Below the pieces are notes generated by a model. The model was not told the DNA's origin, did not search any database, and saw only the letters and a list, made by a program, of their open reading frames with translations. 64,000 nt of DNA, from assembly GCF_003387475.1 (NCBI RefSeq), contig NZ_QUNO01000004.1, positions 1-64,000 on the forward strand, read 5' to 3'. Shown here one piece after another: positions 7,637 through 15,938 of the stretch. Position 1 is the stretch's first letter; every line of letters starts with the position of its first letter. This stretch comes from Kutzneria buriramensis (GTDB taxonomy: Bacteria > Actinomycetota > Actinomycetes > Mycobacteriales > Pseudonocardiaceae). Position numbers and translations under genes: made by a program.

Positions 7637-8938
7637 ATGTCAGATCGGTACCTCCAGTTCGCCCAGTCCGGTTTCGGGCGGTTCGTCACCGGCCGGCTCG
7701 GGCTGCCGCGGCCGGCCCGCTTGCGGCGGTACCGCCCGGGGCAGCCGGCGTTGGCGGGTCCGGTGCTGACCGGCGGCGCCGGCCGGCTCGACGCCGTGCT
7801 CAAGGGACACGCCACCGGCGGGGACGCGCCGTACGGGGCACTGGTCTTCGACGCCACCGGCATCGACACCCCCGAGCAGCTGCGCGCGCTGCACACCTTC
7901 TTCGGGCCGGTCATTCGGCAGCTCGGACCGTGCGGACGGGTCGTGGTGCTCGGCACCCCGCCCGAGGAGCTCACCAGCGTGCCGGCGGTTGTCGCGCAGC
8001 GGGCGCTGGAGGGATTTGTCCGCTCCGTCGCCAAGGAGCTGCGGGCCGGCAGCACCGCCCAGCTCGTCTACGTGTCCGAAGGCGCCGAGCCGAACGTCGA
8101 GTCGACGCTGCGGTTCCTGCTCAGCGCCAAGTCCGCTTACGTGTCCGGGCAGGTCATCCGGGTCGGCGCCGCCGAGGTGGTCGAGCCCGTGGACTGGGAG
8201 CACCCACTCGCCGACCGGGTCGCCCTGGTTACCGGTGCGTCGCGGGGCATCGGCGCCGCGATCGCCGAGGTGCTCGCCCGGGACGGCGCGCACGTCGTGT
8301 GCCTCGATATCGCCGCTCAGGGCGGCGAGCTGTCCGAGGTCGCCAACCGGGTCGGCGGGTCCGCCGTGCAGATGGACATCACCGCGCCGGACGCGCCCGC
8401 CCGGCTCGTCGAGTACTTCCAGCTGCGGCACGAGGGCGTGGACATCGTCGTGCACAACGCCGGCATCACGCGGGACAAGACGTTGGCGAAGATGACCGAG
8501 GACCAGTGGGACGCCGTGCTCGCGGTGAACCTCACCAGCCAGCTCCGGGTCAACGACGGCCTGGTGAAGGCCGGGGCGTTGCGGCGCAACGGCCGGATCG
8601 TCGGGGTGTCGTCGATCGCCGGCATCGCCGGCAACGTGGGGCAGACCAACTACGCCACCAGCAAGGCCGGCGTCATCGGCATGGTTCGGTCGCTCGCGCC
8701 GGAGCTCGCCAGCCGCGGCAGCACCATCAACGCCGTCGCTCCCGGTTTCATCGAGACCAAGATGACCGCCGCCGTGCCGCTGTTCATCCGGCAGGCCGGG
8801 CGGCTGATGAACAGCATGTCCCAGGGCGGGCTGCCGGTGGACGTCGCCGAAACCATTGCCTGGTACGCGAATCCCGCGTCGTCCGGGGTCAACGGCAATG
8901 TCGTCCGGGTGTGCGGGCAGAGCCTGCTGGGGGCGTGA
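7637..8938 (+). CDS. fabG4: High-molecular-weight 3-oxoacyl reductase (FabG4-like)
   Basis: A 433-aa, two-domain short-chain dehydrogenase. The N-terminal Rossmann-like domain (1-185) has lost the usual motifs. The C-terminal domain is complete: TGASRGIG at 199-206, NAG at 274-276, the Ser in VSSIAG (325-326), and YxxxK at Tyr339/Lys343. This is the architecture of mycobacterial FabG4 (Rv0242c), which reduces 3-oxoacyl-CoA with NADH. ATG at 7637 has GGGAGG 9 bases upstream; longer upstream frames are not needed. It is translationally coupled to htdX (TGATG overlap). Confidence 0.92.
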   Translation: MSDRYLQFAQSGFGRFVTGRLGLPRPARLRRYRPGQPALAGPVLTGGAGRLDAVLKGHATGGDAPYGALVFDATGIDTPEQLRALHTFFGPVIRQLGPCGRVVVLGTPPEELTSVPAVVAQRALEGFVRSVAKELRAGSTAQLVYVSEGAEPNVESTLRFLLSAKSAYVSGQVIRVGAAEVVEPVDWEHPLADRVALVTGASRGIGAAIAEVLARDGAHVVCLDIAAQGGELSEVANRVGGSAVQMDITAPDAPARLVEYFQLRHEGVDIVVHNAGITRDKTLAKMTEDQWDAVLAVNLTSQLRVNDGLVKAGALRRNGRIVGVSSIAGIAGNVGQTNYATSKAGVIGMVRSLAPELASRGSTINAVAPGFIETKMTAAVPLFIRQAGRLMNSMSQGGLPVDVAETIAWYANPASSGVNGNVVRVCGQSLLGA

Positions 8939-9789
8939 TGTTCCTTCGTGCGGCGCTGACCAGTTTCCGGCGCGGCGGCTCCTCGCTGCCCGCCGATGTC
9001 CTCTCGCTGTCGGATGTGGCCGTCGACGTGGCGCATTTGGCCGCGTACAACCGGGTTTGCGGTTTCGGGCTGCGGGACGAGCTGCCCGCCACCTATCCGC
9101 ATGTGCTGGCCTTTCCGTTGCAGATGCGGCTGATGACGTCGTCCGGTTTCCCGTTTCCCCTGCCCGGCTTGGTGCATGTCGGGAACCGGATCACCGTTTC
9201 GCGGCCGGTTCTCGCTTCGGAGCGGTTCGACCTCCGGGTGCGGGCCGTCGACCTTCGGTCACACGAGCGGGGGCGGCAGTTCGACGTCGTCAGCGAGCTG
9301 CTGGTCGGCTCGGACGTGGTGTGGACCGACGTCAGCACGTATCTGCGTCGGGAGGGCTCTGCCGGCTCCGGCGGTTCTTCCGTTGAGCCACCGTCGCCGT
9401 CCGCCGTGTGGTCTGTGCCTGGCGACATCGGCCGTCGTTACGGGGCGGTGTCCGGCGACCGGAATCCCATCCACCTCAACGCCTTGGCTGCGCGGCTGTT
9501 CGGCTTCAAGCGGGCCATCGCCCACGGGATGTGGACCAAGGCCCGGTGCCTGGCTGCCTTGGAGGAACGGCTTCCCGCCGCCTACACCGTGGATGTGAGG
9601 TTCAAGCTGCCCGTGCTGTTGCCAGCCAAGGTCGGTTTCAGCGCGTCGGCGGTGGGGGACGGGTGGGAATTCGCCGTACACGACATCCGCACCGGCCGAC
9701 CTCATTTGGCCGGAACGATAGCCCCCGCCCTATCCCAGGGGGGCGACCCCGAGCCCAGTCTACCAGCGGAAACGCCTACTGGATCTTGA
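8938..9789 (+). CDS. htdX: 3-hydroxyacyl dehydratase, MaoC/HtdX family
   Basis: A 283-aa double hot-dog protein. The C-terminal half has the hydratase-2 motif with Asp174 and His179 (YGAVSGDRNPIHLN), then the AIAHGMW segment. It would hydrate or dehydrate 2-enoyl and 3-hydroxyacyl thioesters, one step before FabG4. The start overlaps the fabG4 stop by one base. The last ~22 residues (from about 262) are encoded by the DnaA-box repeat element at 9720-9842, so the C-terminus appears to be a replacement of the ancestral end. Its Pro/Ser/Gly-rich make-up fits a non-conserved tail. Confidence 0.88.
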   Translation: MFLRAALTSFRRGGSSLPADVLSLSDVAVDVAHLAAYNRVCGFGLRDELPATYPHVLAFPLQMRLMTSSGFPFPLPGLVHVGNRITVSRPVLASERFDLRVRAVDLRSHERGRQFDVVSELLVGSDVVWTDVSTYLRREGSAGSGGSSVEPPSPSAVWSVPGDIGRRYGAVSGDRNPIHLNALAARLFGFKRAIAHGMWTKARCLAALEERLPAAYTVDVRFKLPVLLPAKVGFSASAVGDGWEFAVHDIRTGRPHLAGTIAPALSQGGDPEPSLPAETPTGS

Positions 9790-9842
9790 TACCGGTCGTC
9801 CTGTGGACAACCGGGGAATCGACCCTCGGCCTGTGGACAACT
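9720..9842. repeat. Dispersed ~120-bp element with two DnaA boxes, copy 1
   Basis: Colinear with the copy at 14878-14997. Both have CCCCCGCC, a run of six G, GATCTT, and then two TGTGGACAA (the complement of the actinobacterial DnaA box TTGTCCACA). In this copy the boxes are at 9802-9810 and 9832-9840, 30 bp apart. Box 2 directly abuts the tetR stop codon. The left part forms the 3' end of htdX. Confidence 0.7.
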
Positions 9843-10488
9843 ACTTCGGCGGCTGCCACATCTGGCCCTCGACGAGGTTGCCGAAGCCCATCCAGACCAG
9901 GTTCATCAGGCGGGCGGCGACCGCGCCGGCGGATTCCTCGGGGTGGTCGAGCCACCAGTCGGCGAGCGACTCGCCGGCACCGACCAGGGCGGCAGCCATG
10001 GCGTCGGCGTGCAGGGTGGCGGCCTCGCTGTCGGCGGTGTTCAGCAGCAGCGCGGCGACGAGGCTGACGGCGCGGCGGCGCATGTCGAGGAGTTCCTGAG
10101 CGAAGGGGCCGCCCTGGGCGCTGGCCTGGCGGTGCAGCACCTGCCAGCTGTCCCGATACTCGCCGACGAAGCCGAAGAATGCCCGGAGACCGTGCCATAG
10201 CTGCACGTCGGGACGGTCGCCGGCGCCGCTGACGCCGTCGGCGATGGCCTCCATGAGACGGGTGGCCTCGCGCCGGATGCAGGCGGCGAACAGGTCCTCC
10301 TTGGAGCCCAGGTAGGCGTACACCATGGGCTTGGAGATGTCGGCGACCTCGGAGATCTCGTCCATCGACGCCGCGTGGTAGCCGCGCTGGGAGAAGACCC
10401 CCACGGCGGCGTCGAGGATCTGCCGCTCACGCACCTCGCGTGGCAGCCGCTTGGCCCGGACCCGGCCGGCCGCGTCATTCGTCCGCAT
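9841..10488 (-). CDS. TetR-family transcriptional regulator
   Basis: A 215-aa protein. Residues ~18-65 form the TetR helix-turn-helix (RQILDAAVGVFSQRGYHAASMDEIS, then ISKPMVYAYLGSKEDLF). The C-terminal domain is all-helical and presumably binds an acyl-CoA or similar ligand. It is divergent from the SCP2/acyl-CoA dehydrogenase genes, and the shared promoter holds a near-perfect TACTCGCGAGTA palindrome. The same composite site recurs at the thiolase/fabG4 promoter, so the protein probably represses itself and both flanking fatty-acid units. The stop codon touches the DnaA-box element. Confidence 0.9.
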   Translation of the reverse strand: MRTNDAAGRVRAKRLPREVRERQILDAAVGVFSQRGYHAASMDEISEVADISKPMVYAYLGSKEDLFAACIRREATRLMEAIADGVSGAGDRPDVQLWHGLRAFFGFVGEYRDSWQVLHRQASAQGGPFAQELLDMRRRAVSLVAALLLNTADSEAATLHADAMAAALVGAGESLADWWLDHPEESAGAVAARLMNLVWMGFGNLVEGQMWQPPK

Positions 10489-10514
10489 CCGAAGCAGGCT
10501 ATCTTGCCGGCGTA

Positions 10515-10546
10515 CCTACTACACAGTAGGCTTACTCGCGAGTAGG
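10515..10546. promoter_or_regulatory. Composite operator, copy 2 (tetR/SCP2 promoter)
   Basis: CCTACT-ACAC-AGTAGG (10515-10530) is followed directly by the perfect palindrome TACTCGCGAGTA (10533-10544). It lies between divergent tetR and the SCP2 gene, just ahead of the latter's GGAGGT Shine-Dalgarno. It is the better of the two copies in the window. Confidence 0.75.
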
Positions 10547-10562
10547 TACGCGGAGGTGGGGC

Positions 10563-11102
10563 ATGGCCGACATCGAGCAGTTGACATCGATCGACCCGAA
10601 GAAACTCAGCAAGGACGAGTTCGTGGCGCTGCTGTCCTCCTTCACCGAGGCGGCGCAGGACGGCGCGCAGTTCGACCTCAGCGCGATGCCGCCGCAGGAC
10701 TTCGCGCGGATCATCTCCCGGGCGTCCAAGGACCAGATCGAGGCCGTGATGGCCCAGCCGGCGCTGCGCGGGCCGATCCTGGACGAGGTGTTCCGGCGCA
10801 TGGAGGTGCACTTCCGCACCGAGCGCGCCGGTTCGACGCGGGCGATCGTGCACTTCCGACTCACGGGCGGCGACGACTTCGACCGGTACCAGGTGGCGAT
10901 CAACGACGGCGCCTGCGCGATCACCAAGAACGGCGAGGACGAGCCGCGCGCCACCGTGACGCTGGCGCCGCTGGAATTCCTCAAGCTGGCCACCGGCAAC
11001 GCGTCGGCCCCCGTGCTGTTCATGACCGGGAAGCTGAAGGTCAAGGGCGATCTCGGTTTCGCGGCCGGCTTCATGAGCCTGTTCGACATCCCCAAGGCGT
11101 GA
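10563..11102 (+). CDS. SCP2 sterol/lipid-binding domain protein
   Basis: A 179-aa protein. Residues ~75-178 form an SCP2 fold (DRYQVAINDGACAITKNGEDEPRATVTL and the hydrophobic C-terminal stretch TGKLKVKGDLGFAAGFMSLF). The N-terminal ~70 residues are helical and lack a signal peptide. Such proteins bind lipids or acyl-CoA in the cytosol. A good GGAGGT lies 5 bases before the ATG. It is the first gene of a two-gene unit with the acyl-CoA dehydrogenase (15-bp gap), under the composite operator. Confidence 0.85.
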   Translation: MADIEQLTSIDPKKLSKDEFVALLSSFTEAAQDGAQFDLSAMPPQDFARIISRASKDQIEAVMAQPALRGPILDEVFRRMEVHFRTERAGSTRAIVHFRLTGGDDFDRYQVAINDGACAITKNGEDEPRATVTLAPLEFLKLATGNASAPVLFMTGKLKVKGDLGFAAGFMSLFDIPKA

Positions 11103-11117
11103 GAGGACTTATCCCCG

Positions 11118-12332
11118 ATGGCCGGCTTCTCCCTCGAACTCAACGAGGACCAGCGCGACCTGCGTGACTGGGTGCACGGCTTCGCCAAGGACGTGATCCG
11201 GCCGGCCGCCCCGGAGTGGGACGAGCGCGAGGAAACACCGTGGCCGATCCTCCAGGAGGCCGCCAAGATCGGCCTCTACGGCTTCGAGTCGCTGGCGACC
11301 TGGTTCGCCGACCCGATCGGCCTCTCCCTGCCCATCGCCACCGAGGAGCTCTTCTGGGGTGACGCCGGCATCGCGCTGGCGATCATGGGCACCGGGCTCG
11401 CGGTGGCCGGCATCTTCGCCTCCGGCGAGCCGGAGCAGCTGGCCGAGTGGGTGCCGGAGTGCTTCGGCGACGAGAACGACCCGAAGGTGGCCGCGTTCTG
11501 CGCCTCCGAGCCGCAGGCCGGCTCGGACGTCAGCGGCTACAAGACTCGGGCCCGTTACGACGAGGCCACCGACGAGTGGGTGATCAACGGTCAGAAGGCG
11601 TGGGCCACCAACGGCGGCATCGCCAACGTGCACGTCGTCACCGCGGTCGTCGACCCCACGCTGGGCGCGCGCGGCCAGGCCGGCTTCATCGTGCCGCCGA
11701 ACACCCCCGGCGTGGCCAGCACCCGCAAGATCAAGAAGCACGGCCTGCGGGCCTCGCACACCGCCGACGTGTTCTTCGACGACGTGCGCGTGCCGGGCCG
11801 CTGCGTGCTCGGTGGCAAGGAGCGCGTGGAAGCCCGGCTGGCCCGGGCCCGCGAGGGCAAGAAAGCCGGCGGGCAGGCCGCGATGGCGACCTTCGAGACC
11901 ACCCGCCCCACCGTCGGCGCGATGGCCGTCGGCGTCGCCCGCGCCGCCTACGACTACGCGCTGGAGTACGCCAAGGACCGCGAGGCCTTCGGCCGCAAGA
12001 TCATCGAGAACCAGTCGATCGCCTTCGACCTGGCCAACATGCGCATGGAGATCGACGCCGCGCGCATGCTGGTGTGGCGGGCCGCCTGGATGGGCCGCAA
12101 CAACGTGCCGTTCGAGGCCGGCGAGGGCTCGATGTCCAAGCTCAAGGCCAGCGAGGTCGCCGTCTGGTCGACCGAGCGCGCGATCCAGATCCTCGGCGGC
12201 GCCGGCTACACCCGTGAGCACCCGGTGGAGCGCATGCACCGCGACGCCAAGATCTTCACCATCTTCGAGGGCACGTCCGAGATCCAGCGACTGGTGATCT
12301 CGCGGGCCATCTCCGGGATCCACATCCCCTGA
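11118..12332 (+). CDS. Acyl-CoA dehydrogenase
   Basis: A 404-aa flavoprotein catalysing the first, FAD-dependent step of beta-oxidation. Motifs in order: FCASEPQAGSDV (FAD/substrate loop), WVINGQKAWATNGG, AFGRKIIENQ, and the C-terminal IFEGTSEIQRL with the family's catalytic-base Glu. Length is that of short/medium-chain enzymes, not the ~610-aa FadE5 type that accompanies this cluster in mycobacteria. It forms a unit with the SCP2 protein and ends at a clear terminator. Confidence 0.93.
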   Translation: MAGFSLELNEDQRDLRDWVHGFAKDVIRPAAPEWDEREETPWPILQEAAKIGLYGFESLATWFADPIGLSLPIATEELFWGDAGIALAIMGTGLAVAGIFASGEPEQLAEWVPECFGDENDPKVAAFCASEPQAGSDVSGYKTRARYDEATDEWVINGQKAWATNGGIANVHVVTAVVDPTLGARGQAGFIVPPNTPGVASTRKIKKHGLRASHTADVFFDDVRVPGRCVLGGKERVEARLARAREGKKAGGQAAMATFETTRPTVGAMAVGVARAAYDYALEYAKDREAFGRKIIENQSIAFDLANMRMEIDAARMLVWRAAWMGRNNVPFEAGEGSMSKLKASEVAVWSTERAIQILGGAGYTREHPVERMHRDAKIFTIFEGTSEIQRLVISRAISGIHIP

Positions 12333-12341
12333 GCCGACGCG

Positions 12342-12379
12342 GGCGAAGAGGCACCCGGGCGAGAGCTCGGGTGCCTCTT
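12342..12379. terminator. Bidirectional terminator hairpin
   Basis: A perfect 14-bp stem (12342-12355 with 12366-12379) with a 10-base loop sits exactly between convergent acyl-CoA dehydrogenase and the 115-aa membrane protein gene. Confidence 0.8.
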
Positions 12380-12385
12380 CGTATC

Positions 12386-12733
12386 TCAGGCGGTGTACGC
12401 AAGGGCGGCATAGGACAGGCCACCGAGGCCGGCGACGATCACGACGTACGAGCCGAGGGCGATCACCAGTGCCCGGCCGGGAGCAGCTCGGCGGAGGGCG
12501 AGGGCGTAGACGACGGCGGCGAGGATCGCGGCGAACACCGCGAACAGGAACATGAGGAACCAGGCGACGCCGAACGTCAGGCCGGCGACCACGGCGGCCA
12601 GCACGGCGTTGCGGACGCCGAGGTGGCGACGGGCGATCGCGAATATCGCGCCGCCGGCGATCACGGCGCCGATCGCCGGCGCGGCCACCACGAGGTCGAA
12701 CACGAGCGCCTCGGGTCCGTTCTGTCTGCTCAT
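12386..12733 (-). CDS. Hypothetical membrane protein, 115 aa
   Basis: Four hydrophobic segments (about residues 10-30, 40-58, 60-80, 90-112), no signal peptide and no recognised motif. The arrangement recalls small DUF4190-like actinobacterial membrane proteins, but I cannot place it. It is divergent from the glutaminase gene (56-bp gap) and convergent with the acyl-CoA dehydrogenase. Confidence 0.65.
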   Translation of the reverse strand: MSRQNGPEALVFDLVVAAPAIGAVIAGGAIFAIARRHLGVRNAVLAAVVAGLTFGVAWFLMFLFAVFAAILAAVVYALALRRAAPGRALVIALGSYVVIVAGLGGLSYAALAYTA

Positions 12734-12789
12734 ACCGCTTTCAGACGTGCCACCGGTGCGGTGGTTGGCGGTTTACGCCGGACAGCACA

Positions 12790-13710
12790 ATGGCGGTCGT
12801 GGACTACCAGGAACTGCTCGACGGCGCGGTCGAGGCGGGCCGGGCGCGGCTCGGCGACGGCCGGGTCGCGGACTACATCCCGGCGCTGGCCTGCGCCGAC
12901 TCGACCGCGCTCGGCATGGCGCTGGCGACCGTCGACGGCGAGGTGTTCGAGGCCGGGGACGCCGCGCGGCCGTTCTCCATCCAGAGCATCTCGAAACTGT
13001 TCACGCTGGCCCTGGTGCTGGCCGAGGGCGGCGAGGCGCTGTGGCGGCGGGTGGGCCGCGAGCCGTCCGGCAATCCGTTCAATTCGTTGGTACAGCTGGA
13101 AACCGAGCACGGCATTCCGCGAAACCCGTTCATCAACGCGGGCGCGATCGTGGTGACGGACCGCCTGCTCGGCCTCACCGGGGACGCGGCCGGCGCGGTG
13201 CGCGGGTTCCTGCGGGCGGAGACCGGAAACCCTTCGCTGGCAACGAATCGGGAGATCGCGGCATCGGAAGCCCAGCACGGGCACCGGAACGCGGCGCTCG
13301 CGCACTTCATTGCCAGCCACGGCAACCTCGACAACGACGTGGACGCGGTGCTGGCCCAGTACTACGAGCACTGCGCGATCGAGGCCAGCTGCCGGGACCT
13401 CGCGCTCGCCGGCCGATTCCTGGCCCGGCACGGGGTTCGCGCCGACGGCGAGCGGCTGTTGACCCGCAGCGAGGCCAAGCAGGTGAACGCGGTGCTGCTG
13501 ACGTGCGGCACCTACGACGCGGCCGGCGAGTTCGCGTATCGGGTGGGGCTGCCGGGCAAGAGCGGCGTCGGCGGCGGTGTGCTCGCGATCATCCCGGGCC
13601 GGGGCGCGGTCTGCGCCTGGAGCCCGGGCCTGGATCCGGCGGGCAACTCGGTCGCGGCCGTCGCGGCGCTGGACGCTTTCACCACGGCCAGTGGGCTTTC
13701 CGTGTTCTAG
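12790..13710 (+). CDS. glsA: Glutaminase
   Basis: A 306-aa serine-dependent glutaminase that hydrolyses L-glutamine to glutamate and ammonia in the cytosol. The catalytic SxxK is Ser66/Lys69 in FSIQSISKLF, as in E. coli enzymes. The family blocks EPSGNPFNS, NPFINAGAI and the C-terminal GKSGVGGGVLAI are all present. Length is the usual ~305-310 aa, with no STAS or ankyrin extension. The stop overlaps by 4 bp the stop of the convergent membrane protein. Confidence 0.95.
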   Translation: MAVVDYQELLDGAVEAGRARLGDGRVADYIPALACADSTALGMALATVDGEVFEAGDAARPFSIQSISKLFTLALVLAEGGEALWRRVGREPSGNPFNSLVQLETEHGIPRNPFINAGAIVVTDRLLGLTGDAAGAVRGFLRAETGNPSLATNREIAASEAQHGHRNAALAHFIASHGNLDNDVDAVLAQYYEHCAIEASCRDLALAGRFLARHGVRADGERLLTRSEAKQVNAVLLTCGTYDAAGEFAYRVGLPGKSGVGGGVLAIIPGRGAVCAWSPGLDPAGNSVAAVAALDAFTTASGLSVF

Positions 13711-14378
13711 GGCTTCTCGGGCGGCTGGTACGTGTCGGTCGGCGGCAGGTCGACCGGTACCTCGAAGCCCATCGGCGGCGTGTCCGCGTCGACCTGGTAG
13801 ACGATCACCTCGTCCGCCGGCGCGGTCGGCGCCGACGCGGCCTCGGGCGTGAGGCCGAGCAGCAGCACGGAGCCAAGGGCGGCGACGAGGCAGGCGGCGA
13901 TCAGGATCCACATGCCGGCGCCGGTGGTGTAGCCGAAGCCGTCGGCGTCGGCGTTGACGGAGATGGAGTCGATCAGGTTGGTGGCGGCGAACCAGATGTA
14001 GCCGGCGATCAGCGCGCACGCGGCGACCGCGAACAGGCGCACCCGGACCAGGTTCAGCGGCCGGCCGCGGCCGCGCAGCAGCGCGTCGGCTCCGTACAGG
14101 GCGAGCGCGCCGGCGACGACCGCCGGCAGGCCGAAGTAGTTCGGGCGGGACGCCGTGCCGAACGGCACGCCGAGGGTGGGGTACTCGGTGGTCCACGACG
14201 TGGTGGTGAACGTGTGGCCGACCGAGGTCAGCCCGAACGAGAACGACATCGACAGGTCGAACAGGCTGCCGAACGTGCCGCCGATGGCAAGCAGGCCGGC
14301 CGCCAGCAGCACGACGCCGGCCACGATCCGGCGGGACGGCAGCCGGACGACCGGCACGGACGGCGTCGGTTCGCTCAT
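13707..14378 (-). CDS. Hypothetical four-helix membrane protein, 223 aa
   Basis: Hydrophobic segments at about residues 18-38, 85-105, 115-135 and 150-172 flank a 45-residue Thr/Ser-rich, probably extracytoplasmic loop (~45-80). The C-terminus is a ~45-residue acidic, Pro-rich tail. No domain is recognised. It stands alone between glsA and the PPOX gene (29-bp gap to the latter's stop). Confidence 0.65.
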   Translation of the reverse strand: MSEPTPSVPVVRLPSRRIVAGVVLLAAGLLAIGGTFGSLFDLSMSFSFGLTSVGHTFTTTSWTTEYPTLGVPFGTASRPNYFGLPAVVAGALALYGADALLRGRGRPLNLVRVRLFAVAACALIAGYIWFAATNLIDSISVNADADGFGYTTGAGMWILIAACLVAALGSVLLLGLTPEAASAPTAPADEVIVYQVDADTPPMGFEVPVDLPPTDTYQPPEKP

Positions 14379-14407
14379 GTCACCGATTCTGCACGAACCG
14401 GCCGCTG

Positions 14408-14827
14408 TCAGTAACGCTTGATGCGCTCCACCTCCTGCCCGGGCCGCCAGACCTGGATGAGCAGGTGCTTGCGGTCGTCACCGATCCCGGTGAACACCGC
14501 CTGCCGCAGGTCGAGCCGGAACTTGTGGTGGTCGCTGGCCACGGGGTCCGCGACGGCGACGCCGGACAGCTTGGCGTCGCCGTCGGGACCGGGATTGGAG
14601 TGCAGCGAGAACCGGCCGTCGCGCAGCAGGTCCCGCGCCTTCATCGCACCGAGCATGGAGCCGATGGTCAGGTCGGGGCCGTCGAACGCGACCTCGGTGC
14701 CGCTGACCCGCGGCGATCCGTCCCGGCGCAGGGTGGCGAGCACGTGGCTCACCTCCGCCGTGAGCACCCGCCGCACCTCGGCGGCCAGCTCCGCCGCCTC
14801 CCCTTCGAACTGCTGCCATGTCGCCAT
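14408..14827 (-). CDS. Pyridoxamine 5'-phosphate oxidase-fold protein
   Basis: A 139-aa split-barrel flavin/F420-binding protein. VSHVLATLRRDGSPRVSGTEV is the typical first strand pair, followed by IGSMLGAMKARDLLRDGRFSLHSNP. Single-domain members of this size in actinobacteria often bind F420 or heme; the substrate cannot be told. ATG at 14827 is chosen over longer upstream frames because the fold begins within 25 residues of it. The second DnaA-box element begins about 50 bp upstream. Confidence 0.8.
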   Translation of the reverse strand: MATWQQFEGEAAELAAEVRRVLTAEVSHVLATLRRDGSPRVSGTEVAFDGPDLTIGSMLGAMKARDLLRDGRFSLHSNPGPDGDAKLSGVAVADPVASDHHKFRLDLRQAVFTGIGDDRKHLLIQVWRPGQEVERIKRY

Positions 14828-14877
14828 GGCCCCGACCCTGCCAGCTGCCCCTGACAAAACCGTGCGACCAACAAGCA

Positions 14878-14997
14878 TCCCCCGCCACTCCCTGGGGGGC
14901 AGCCCCGTCGCCAGCCTACCCACCGCGGGGCCTAGTTGATCTTCAATGAAGGTCGCCTGTGGACAACTGCTTCAACAGGCGGCGCCTGTGGACAACT
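14878..14997. repeat. Dispersed ~120-bp element with two DnaA boxes, copy 2
   Basis: Same order of landmarks as 9720-9842: CCCCCGCC at 14879, six G at 14894-14899, GATCTT at 14938, TGTGGACAA at 14958-14966 and 14987-14995 (29 bp apart). Offsets from the first landmark are 59, 79 and 108 against 60, 80 and 110 in copy 1. Box 2 ends one base from the merR stop codon. Confidence 0.7.
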
Positions 14998-15938
14998 CAG
15001 GCGTGGCAGCGGGTGGCGGCTTCCAGCCAGTCGCGGGCGGGCTTGGGGCTGGGGTACTCGGGCCAGCCGTTGATCTTGCCGAGGAGGTTCCAGAACCGCT
15101 CGGCCCGGTCGTCGGCGAAGATGTCGTAGAGCCGGACCAGCCAGGTCCGGAACTCGGCGTCGTCGTCACGCCCGATGGCGGCGGCCAGTGCGGCGCGCAT
15201 CTCGGCGACGATGCGGCGGCCGGCCTCGGACTCGGGGGCCTCGCCGGCGGCGATGACCTCGGTGACCTTGGTCAACGCCTGCTCGTAGGCGGTCTGGAAG
15301 GCGGTCGTCACCGCGTCGACGGTGCCCTCCTCGGTCATCCGGACGTTCTCGACGGCCATCGCCCGGGTCTTGGCCCGGAACGACGGGTCGCGGATCAGCT
15401 CGACGAACTCGATCCACGCCTCGACCTGCTCGGGCGAGGGGTCGTCGGGCAGGTCGGGACGAACTCGGCGCATCCAGGCGGCGTTCTCCGGCTCCGGCAG
15501 GCCCAGGTCGACCTCCCGCCAGAAGTCCTCGACAATCGCCTGCCGCTCCTCCTCGGTCATGCGGGCGAGTTCGTGCACCATCTCCAGCTCCTTCGGGCTC
15601 GACCCGCGCTTGGCCACGGCGCGCAGCACGGACCGTCGCAGCCGCAGCGTCCTGATCTGGACGTCGAGCGCCTCGGCGTGCTCCGCGGCCAGCTCCGGGA
15701 TGCTCAGCTCACGGGCGAGCACCCGGGTCACGGTCGGCAGGTCCACGCCCAGCTCACGCAGCGTGCGAACGAACTTCAGCCGTGTCAGCGCGTGGATGTC
15801 GTACATCCGGTAGCCGGCGTGGGTGCGTTCGGTCGGGGGCAGCAGACCCGAGTCGGAATAGAACCGGATGGTGCGCACGGACAGGCCGGTCAGCCTGGCC
15901 AGCTCCCCGATTCCGTACAGGTCGTCGTCCCCGTTCAC
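14997..15938 (-). CDS. MerR-family transcriptional regulator, long form
   Basis: A 313-aa protein. The N-terminal ~70 residues are a MerR helix-turn-helix and wing (YGIGELARLTGLSVRTIRFYSDSGLLPP, then GYRMYD), followed by a helical linker. A ~200-residue helical C-terminal domain, rich in Glu and Arg, presumably binds a ligand; it is longer than metal-sensing MerR proteins. GTG at 15938 is taken as the start; GTG at 15944 is equally possible. The promoter carries a MerR-type dyad, so self-regulation is likely. It is divergent from the S1-domain gene. Confidence 0.88.
   Translation of the reverse strand: MNGDDDLYGIGELARLTGLSVRTIRFYSDSGLLPPTERTHAGYRMYDIHALTRLKFVRTLRELGVDLPTVTRVLARELSIPELAAEHAEALDVQIRTLRLRRSVLRAVAKRGSSPKELEMVHELARMTEEERQAIVEDFWREVDLGLPEPENAAWMRRVRPDLPDDPSPEQVEAWIEFVELIRDPSFRAKTRAMAVENVRMTEEGTVDAVTTAFQTAYEQALTKVTEVIAAGEAPESEAGRRIVAEMRAALAAAIGRDDDAEFRTWLVRLYDIFADDRAERFWNLLGKINGWPEYPSPKPARDWLEAATRCHA

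Follow-up and report, generated by a model that had tools for sequence, protein, structure and literature searches.

A conserved cassette of Pseudonocardiaceae that joins predicted DnaA boxes to a promoter-like core

Comparison of genomes identifies a real, conserved, family-wide cassette in the Pseudonocardiaceae, in which predicted DnaA boxes are joined at a fixed distance to a promoter-like core. Its best reading, to which we give an even chance of being right, is that of a dispersed, old, selectively maintained micro-transcription unit under DnaA control. Two copies occur in the window, that is, the whole 64-kb stretch of DNA analysed here from Kutzneria, an antibiotic-producing soil bacterium, and one of them forms the end of the neighbouring htdX gene.

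Anatomy and distribution of the cassette

Both window copies lie on the minus strand (Table 1). A preliminary description had pointed to the likeness of positions 9720-9842 and 14878-14997; the likeness is real and the landmarks read as described there, while the spacing of about 30 bp given for the paired boxes is right for copy 1 (30 bp) and comes to 29 bp at copy 2. Perfect TGTGGACAA sites number four in the window, at 9802, 9832, 14958 and 14987, versus a mean of 0.11 in 100 shuffles. A feature absent from that description is a hexamer resembling a promoter -10 element, which starts exactly 48 bp after the start of the proximal box. The distal box of copy 1 directly adjoins the tetR stop codon (9841-9843), as had been stated, and lies outside the conserved core, because the model match covers only 9716-9812. 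Both boxes of copy 2 fall within a 28-base direct repeat (79% identical), and one of them may therefore be a local duplicate. This copy is located between a MerR gene (stop 14997-14999; Pfam MerR 5.5e-18) and a PNPOx-like gene (about 14408-14827; PNPOx_N 3.8e-6, slightly below its cut-off), sharing its strand with both.

Table 1. Coordinates of the two cassette copies, their landmarks and the genes adjoining copy 1 in the window
Feature	Position	Strand	Basis or remark
Copy 1, conserved core	9712..9813 (model match 9716-9812)	-	14-copy alignment; 81.5 bits, E 3.8e-22
Copy 1, distal predicted DnaA box TTGTCCACA	9832..9840	-	Starts 78 bp before the -10-like hexamer
Copy 1, proximal predicted DnaA box TTGTCCACA	9802..9810	-	Starts 48 bp before the hexamer
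AAGATC motif, -35 region	9782..9787	-	Many Kutzneria copies; not conserved in other genera
Copy 1, -10-like hexamer TAGACT	9757..9762	-	TANNNT in 127/127 aligned copies
Predicted transcribed stretch	9721..9750	-	GGGG (inferred start near 9750) and CCCCCC/GGGGG hairpin; conserved columns
HtdX C-terminal codons supplied by the element	9720..9789	+	Open reading frame list; six Kutzneria htdX loci compared
Copy 2	14872..14969 (model match 14873-14968)	-	77.1 bits
Copy 2, distal predicted DnaA box	14987..14995	-	Starts 77 bp before the hexamer
Copy 2, proximal predicted DnaA box	14958..14966	-	Starts 48 bp before the hexamer
Copy 2, -10-like hexamer TAGGCT	14913..14918	-	
TetR-family gene, stop abutting copy 1	9841..10488	-	Pfam TetR_N 1.4e-15
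htdX, MaoC-like dehydratase, convergent with tetR	8938..9789	+	Pfam MaoC_dehydratas 5e-15; name as in the preliminary description

Read along its own strand (minus in the window), the cassette, which is roughly 100 bases long, mostly has one or two DnaA boxes of the form TTRTCCACA, then a linker, a TANNNT hexamer usually bordered by GG on both sides, a GGGG, a hairpin made of G and C, and a tail enriched in T; its 3' part runs GGGG, CGCCCCCC.GGGA..GGG.GGGGGCTG and then T-rich sequence. The box typically starts 47-48 bp before the hexamer, measured from start to start and not as a gap. In four Kutzneria genomes, a box carrying no more than one mismatch begins 47-49 bp ahead of the hexamer in 96 of the 105 copies, and in 84 of these the distance is 48; the other nine divide into four in which an insertion sequence separates box from hexamer and five whose box is weaker. 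Where there is an upstream box, its start lies 66/67 bp (46 counts) or 77/78 bp (14) before the hexamer, or, on the opposite strand, 64/65 bp (12). Perfect boxes are absent from 8 copies, single in 47, double in 49 and triple in one. Other genera show a box at 46-49 in 13/16 loci (best locus per genome), the background being 1.7e-4 per position. T1, A2 and T6 of the hexamer, which resembles a sigma-70-type -10 sequence and stands at a constrained position, are found in all 127 aligned copies, a count to be read with the hexamer included in the models, though not forced by the alignment, and with relatives in family f31 lacking the A. Because box and hexamer formed part of the training data of the models, hits were to some extent chosen for both and the joint presence of the two is partly selected; copies without a box were still recovered.

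In the host genome (G000; 11.97 Mb in 65 contigs), a search with 9720-9842 returned 14 matches, among them the copy at 14879 (70% identity, E 1.9e-4), and a model built from 14 copies of this genome (R1, copies called at E<1e-8) returned 24, the next match having E 0.06; the repeat thus extends well beyond the pair originally described. Kutzneria genomes G001, G005 and G006 hold 28, 19 and 34 copies, giving 105 with those of the host. Six Kutzneria relatives carry from 5 to at least 66 copies each, the gap inside the genus being more than tenfold (5 in G002, at least 66 in G004). A search of 60 genomes at E<=0.001 gave matches in 23/36 Pseudonocardiaceae genomes from 17 genera, with 1 to at least 67 matches per positive genome, and in 0/24 genomes of 15 other families of the order. 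The family-wide model R2, applied with stricter filters to 296 genomes of the class, matched four: the host, one more member of the Pseudonocardiaceae and two genomes of family f31 (E 5e-5 to 4e-4). Family f31, which belongs to the same class, has a repeat in which TTGACTGG starts 48 bp after the start of a DnaA box; G332 holds three copies that are nearly identical, and G186 holds one (L282, L285, L287, L283). An exact pattern taken from the element occurs in 17 stretches of the named genome collection, all from Kutzneria, a result that says little on spread because the pattern contains GATC, a Kutzneria feature. An origin from phages or plasmids was considered and set aside: copy 1 had no match in plasmid or phage collections, and one core pattern had none in viral contigs. 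Among the papers listed on DnaA boxes and DnaA regulation, actinobacterial repeats, small RNAs and datA/DARS, titles and abstract openings mention no such cassette.

Genomic placement, age and mobility

By a simple codon-usage gene caller, which is rough and missed htdX itself, 104/105 copies lie outside genes, some of them overlapping a gene end. Copies favour convergent gaps and avoid divergent ones: the 105 gaps that hold them comprise 49 convergent, 32 and 20 tandem, 3 divergent and one undetermined, versus 11/57 convergent and 11/57 divergent among neighbouring gene pairs of the window (Fisher p 0.0006 and 0.0007). At 6/30 cydB loci of the family (L246, L247, L249, L251, which is weak, L253 and L261) a cassette stands between cydA and cydB in antisense orientation, and in L252, L255 and L257 one is found ~1 kb downstream of cydB.

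The htdX locus illustrates how closely a copy can become associated with a gene. In the open reading frame list the frame of htdX crosses the element to a TGA at 9787-9789, in agreement with the initial claim that the element encodes the last ~22 residues of HtdX. Relatives lacking the insert, which had been suggested as a comparison, are available among the six Kutzneria htdX loci aligned (G003 yielded no htdX): sites in G000, G005 and G006 are filled, and those in G001, G002 and G004 are without the element. The ends of htdX and tetR adjoin in G002 and G004, while htdX of G001 has a different neighbour. In G005 the element is located after the htdX stop, and htdX of G000 and G006 has no tail resembling that of G002 and G005, its frame instead entering the element. 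The original picture of a dispersed repeat with predicted DnaA boxes, lying between genes and ending htdX, is borne out by the 24 host copies and by the htdX ends of G000 and G006. It also carries a warning for annotation, as a protein may owe its C-terminus to such an element.

Flanking proteins place 72/105 copies in 28 cross-species groups, four of which span all four species; one link (G001_4891716 with G005_6495453) probably runs via a shared insertion-sequence gene, and the figure is better read as ~71/105. Across 64 cross-species pairs, which still include those of the group with this link, identity is 0.83 in the box, 0.81 in the hexamer, 0.91 in the GG that follows, 0.68 in the AAGATC region and 0.48-0.54 in the linkers; since box and hexamer are kept and linkers have largely drifted, the copies look selected. 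Linker identity is 0.52 for orthologues, 0.40 for copies of the same genome and 0.39 for non-orthologous copies of different genomes, and, being no higher within genomes than between them, it argues against a recent burst. In the stretch from box to start, the best paralogue (a maximum over many copies) averages 0.72 vs 0.67 for the best orthologue, which is ahead in 23/72 cases, so exchange between copies may have taken place; copy 1 itself is nearest to a paralogue (0.84), its orthologue standing at 0.76. Average linker identities lend no support to gene conversion as a general process or to a recent burst. On balance, the alignments suggest that the copies are old, with diverging linkers and landmarks held in place.

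The element had been described as mobile-looking. Filled and empty sites at htdX and a copy number from 5 to at least 66 agree with this term, while the ends, which are not enriched in repeats, and the conserved neighbours do not; because ~71/105 copies share conserved neighbours with another species, mobility is at best ancient. Target-site duplications, proposed as a check, did not emerge over the 105 copies, with flanking 6-base direct repeats at 13/105 vs 36/105 in controls that are mostly coding DNA. The best terminal inverted 10-mer averages 8.03 over the same copies vs 7.94 in control stretches, and the window copies have no matching pair of ends. Membership of the cassette among MITEs or insertion-sequence derivatives is not supported. 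Insertion sequences do occur within copies: in G001, those near 4990282, 6188163, 6954553 and 8877749 (L204) hold four insertion sequences of ~1.35 kb at an identical site in each, just a few bases beyond the DnaA box; all four share one 344-aa rve-type transposase and, by eye, are flanked by 4-5-bp duplications. A second insertion-sequence-like end, TTGCAACAC, stands directly after the hairpin in G001_5467168, G001_4891716 and G005_6495453.

Copies also crowd the region of the replication origin. The dnaA gene is at C4:150342, about 140 kb from the window element, and 18/28 copies in G001, 12/19 in G005 and 23/34 in G006 lie within 1 Mb of dnaA, where an even spread would give 4.8, 3.6 and 5.9; in other genera the counts are 24/37 (G032) and 5/7 (G027). 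A control with tRNA genes, loci less than 5 kb apart being collapsed, places 19/38 loci within 1 Mb in G006 (p 0.16 vs the copies; rank test 0.065) and 16/42 in G032 (p 0.024; rank test 0.010), which weakens the case for a strong origin bias specific to the cassette. According to an excerpt of PMC4210621, essential genes of K. albida crowd oriC, as do core genes in this genus. Since core genes and tRNA loci also crowd oriC, much of the clustering follows core-gene placement.

Predicted DnaA binding and a possible transcript

The box of the cassette is also that of the replication origin. Downstream of dnaA, G000, G005 and G006 carry three perfect and three one-mismatch boxes, with the same spacing, within about 235 bp, and a further two or three boxes, none with more than one mismatch, stand about 130-165 bp ahead of the match of the DnaA model; the frame behind the box cluster in G006 resembles the DnaN beta clamp by eye. 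Such classic boxes behind dnaA in three Kutzneria genomes (L137, L136, L205) differ from a statement in the excerpt of PMC4210621 that the K. albida oriC holds no classic DnaA box. Judged by their sequence, the boxes of the cassette are probable DnaA binding sites. TTRTCCACA occurs 171 times in G006 vs 48 times for a reversed-pattern control, and 44 of these sites belong to its 34 copies. Outside elements, 53 boxes in 46 stretches were examined among those listed, and TANNNT stands 48 bp after the box in 2/13 cases from six loci picked for paired boxes and in 0/40 single boxes; both hits, in L199 and L201, stand before likely start codons. In these two loci a pair of boxes, with TAGCGT 48 bp on from the proximal one, precedes the gene for an SLBB-domain protein, which we take to be ComEA, and that for a SAF-domain protein, respectively. 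The same box-hexamer geometry may therefore also drive ordinary genes in a few cases.

In the micro-transcription unit proposed here, DnaA would bind one box, whose centre lies some 56 bp ahead of the inferred start, or two, the second, distal box occupying one of two alternative positions that differ by a helical turn. Bound DnaA would then recruit or modulate RNA polymerase at a promoter with a -10 of the GGTAGACT type and without a conserved -35. Transcription would begin on GGGG and end shortly afterwards at the G/C hairpin with its T-rich tail, yielding a G-rich RNA some 40 nt long. If the following gene points the same way, read-through would turn the cassette into a DnaA-responsive leader promoter.

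The sequence signals bear unevenly on this proposal. In the 105 copies the T fraction rises to 0.40 at 41-47 bases past the hexamer start, as compared with 0.15 at 52-63 and 0.19 at 70-109, and the T tail is weak in both window copies. Within 9600-15200, no consensus promoters or terminators and no -35 element at 16-18 bp were called, and the -35 region is not conserved across genera. The 127 predicted transcribed stretches exceed mononucleotide shuffles in folding stability by a mean of 2 kcal/mol, and a G-quadruplex appears in the best fold of 31/127 of them vs 14% of such shuffles, an excess that does not establish one; six hairpin stretches showed no folding advantage over dinucleotide shuffles (z -0.63 to 1.49). 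The hairpin columns show no covariation, and an RNA structure supported by it was accordingly dropped, as was a known Rfam RNA, the best match being ffh at 21.1 bits vs a gathering threshold of 35, with ffh absent in 14 other cassette loci. In the weak f31 relatives both GGTTGACTGG and the 48-bp distance are retained, and the hexamer position reads TTGACT, with the -10 A lost; this sequence would be poorly tolerated by a -10 and counts against the promoter reading.

It is tempting to extend the proposal to a distributed read-out of DnaA, in which dozens of DnaA-switched micro-promoters of the same geometry, each giving a ~40-nt G-rich RNA or a short G-rich R-loop, would answer rising DnaA or fork passage through the origin-proximal core with a chromosome-wide burst of a single RNA species, the same geometry also driving some protein genes. 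We regard this extension as unlikely.

Competing readings and relation to known systems

The boxes themselves may be the function, soaking up DnaA soon after the origin fires, with the promoter-like part incidental or belonging to another protein. Such titration, which we consider rather doubtful, is favoured by the conservation of boxes at orthologous sites, by the number of copies near dnaA in G001, G005, G006 and G032, and by the excess of TTRTCCACA in G006, but it requires neither an invariant -10-like hexamer, nor a fixed box-hexamer distance, nor a hairpin. The origin bias on which it leans is modest against the collapsed tRNA loci and is matched by the oriC-crowded essential genes of K. 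albida noted above, and the 47 copies with one perfect box only and the 8 with none fit it poorly. Membership of datA or DARS, named in the preliminary description, is not supported, as most copies have one or two boxes and a promoter-like geometry, for which datA and DARS are not known.

Conservation of the G/C columns without compensatory change, the f31 relatives that retain GGTTGACTGG and the distance while losing the -10 A, and the preference for convergent gaps would also suit a two-part DNA site, at which DnaA and a second protein bound to GGTAGACTGG/GGGG would act without transcription, for example in chromosome organisation or recombination. The freer inner bases of TANNNT and the T-enriched 3' tail, however, resemble transcription signals, and we hold this reading to be quite improbable. 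A decaying selfish repeat of the MITE, REP or Correia kind, spread through intergenic gaps and carrying box and promoter by chance, would account for dispersal, for the intergenic position of 104/105 copies and the variable copy number within one genus, for filled and empty htdX sites, and for best paralogues often more alike than orthologues. It seems very unlikely, given ends with no excess of inverted matches or flanking direct repeats, linkers that give no sign of a recent burst and landmarks kept against drifting linkers in the 64 pairs.

We therefore retain the DnaA-controlled micro-transcription unit as the best reading. The cassette suggests that replication control and transcription may be linked in a way not recognised so far. 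If the reading is true, 17 genera offer a ready-made system for studying DnaA as an actinobacterial transcription factor and for testing whether bacteria broadcast their replication state.

Among known dispersed repeats, the Correia elements of Neisseria and the REP/ERIC sequences are about 100-150 bp long, intergenic and dispersed, and Correia elements carry promoters. The cassette is like them in size class, intergenic position and dispersal, and differs in showing no excess of terminal inverted repeats, in carrying a DnaA box and in being constrained at orthologous sites. Streptomyces reportedly has a single DnaA-box cluster, said to have been described by Smulczyk-Krawczyszyn in 2006, which likewise places actinobacterial boxes outside oriC; the cassette, in contrast, is repeated. 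Genes controlled by DnaA are known individually. The DnaA-box clusters of B. subtilis and datA/DARS of E. coli, as presented in an excerpt of PMC5295017, share with the cassette the location of boxes outside oriC; datA holds five boxes in ~1 kb, whereas the cassette mostly has one or two per copy, exists in dozens of copies and ties its boxes to a -10-like hexamer and a hairpin. Closer in arrangement are DnaA-regulated promoters such as those of nrdAB and dnaA in E. coli and nurR in S. meliloti, which DnaA activates or represses (PMC8203912, in excerpt) and where boxes lie upstream of a promoter as they do here upstream of a promoter-like core. Unlike those promoters, the cassette is repeated with a fixed geometry, often without a gene of its own, and the action of DnaA upon it is one that we infer.
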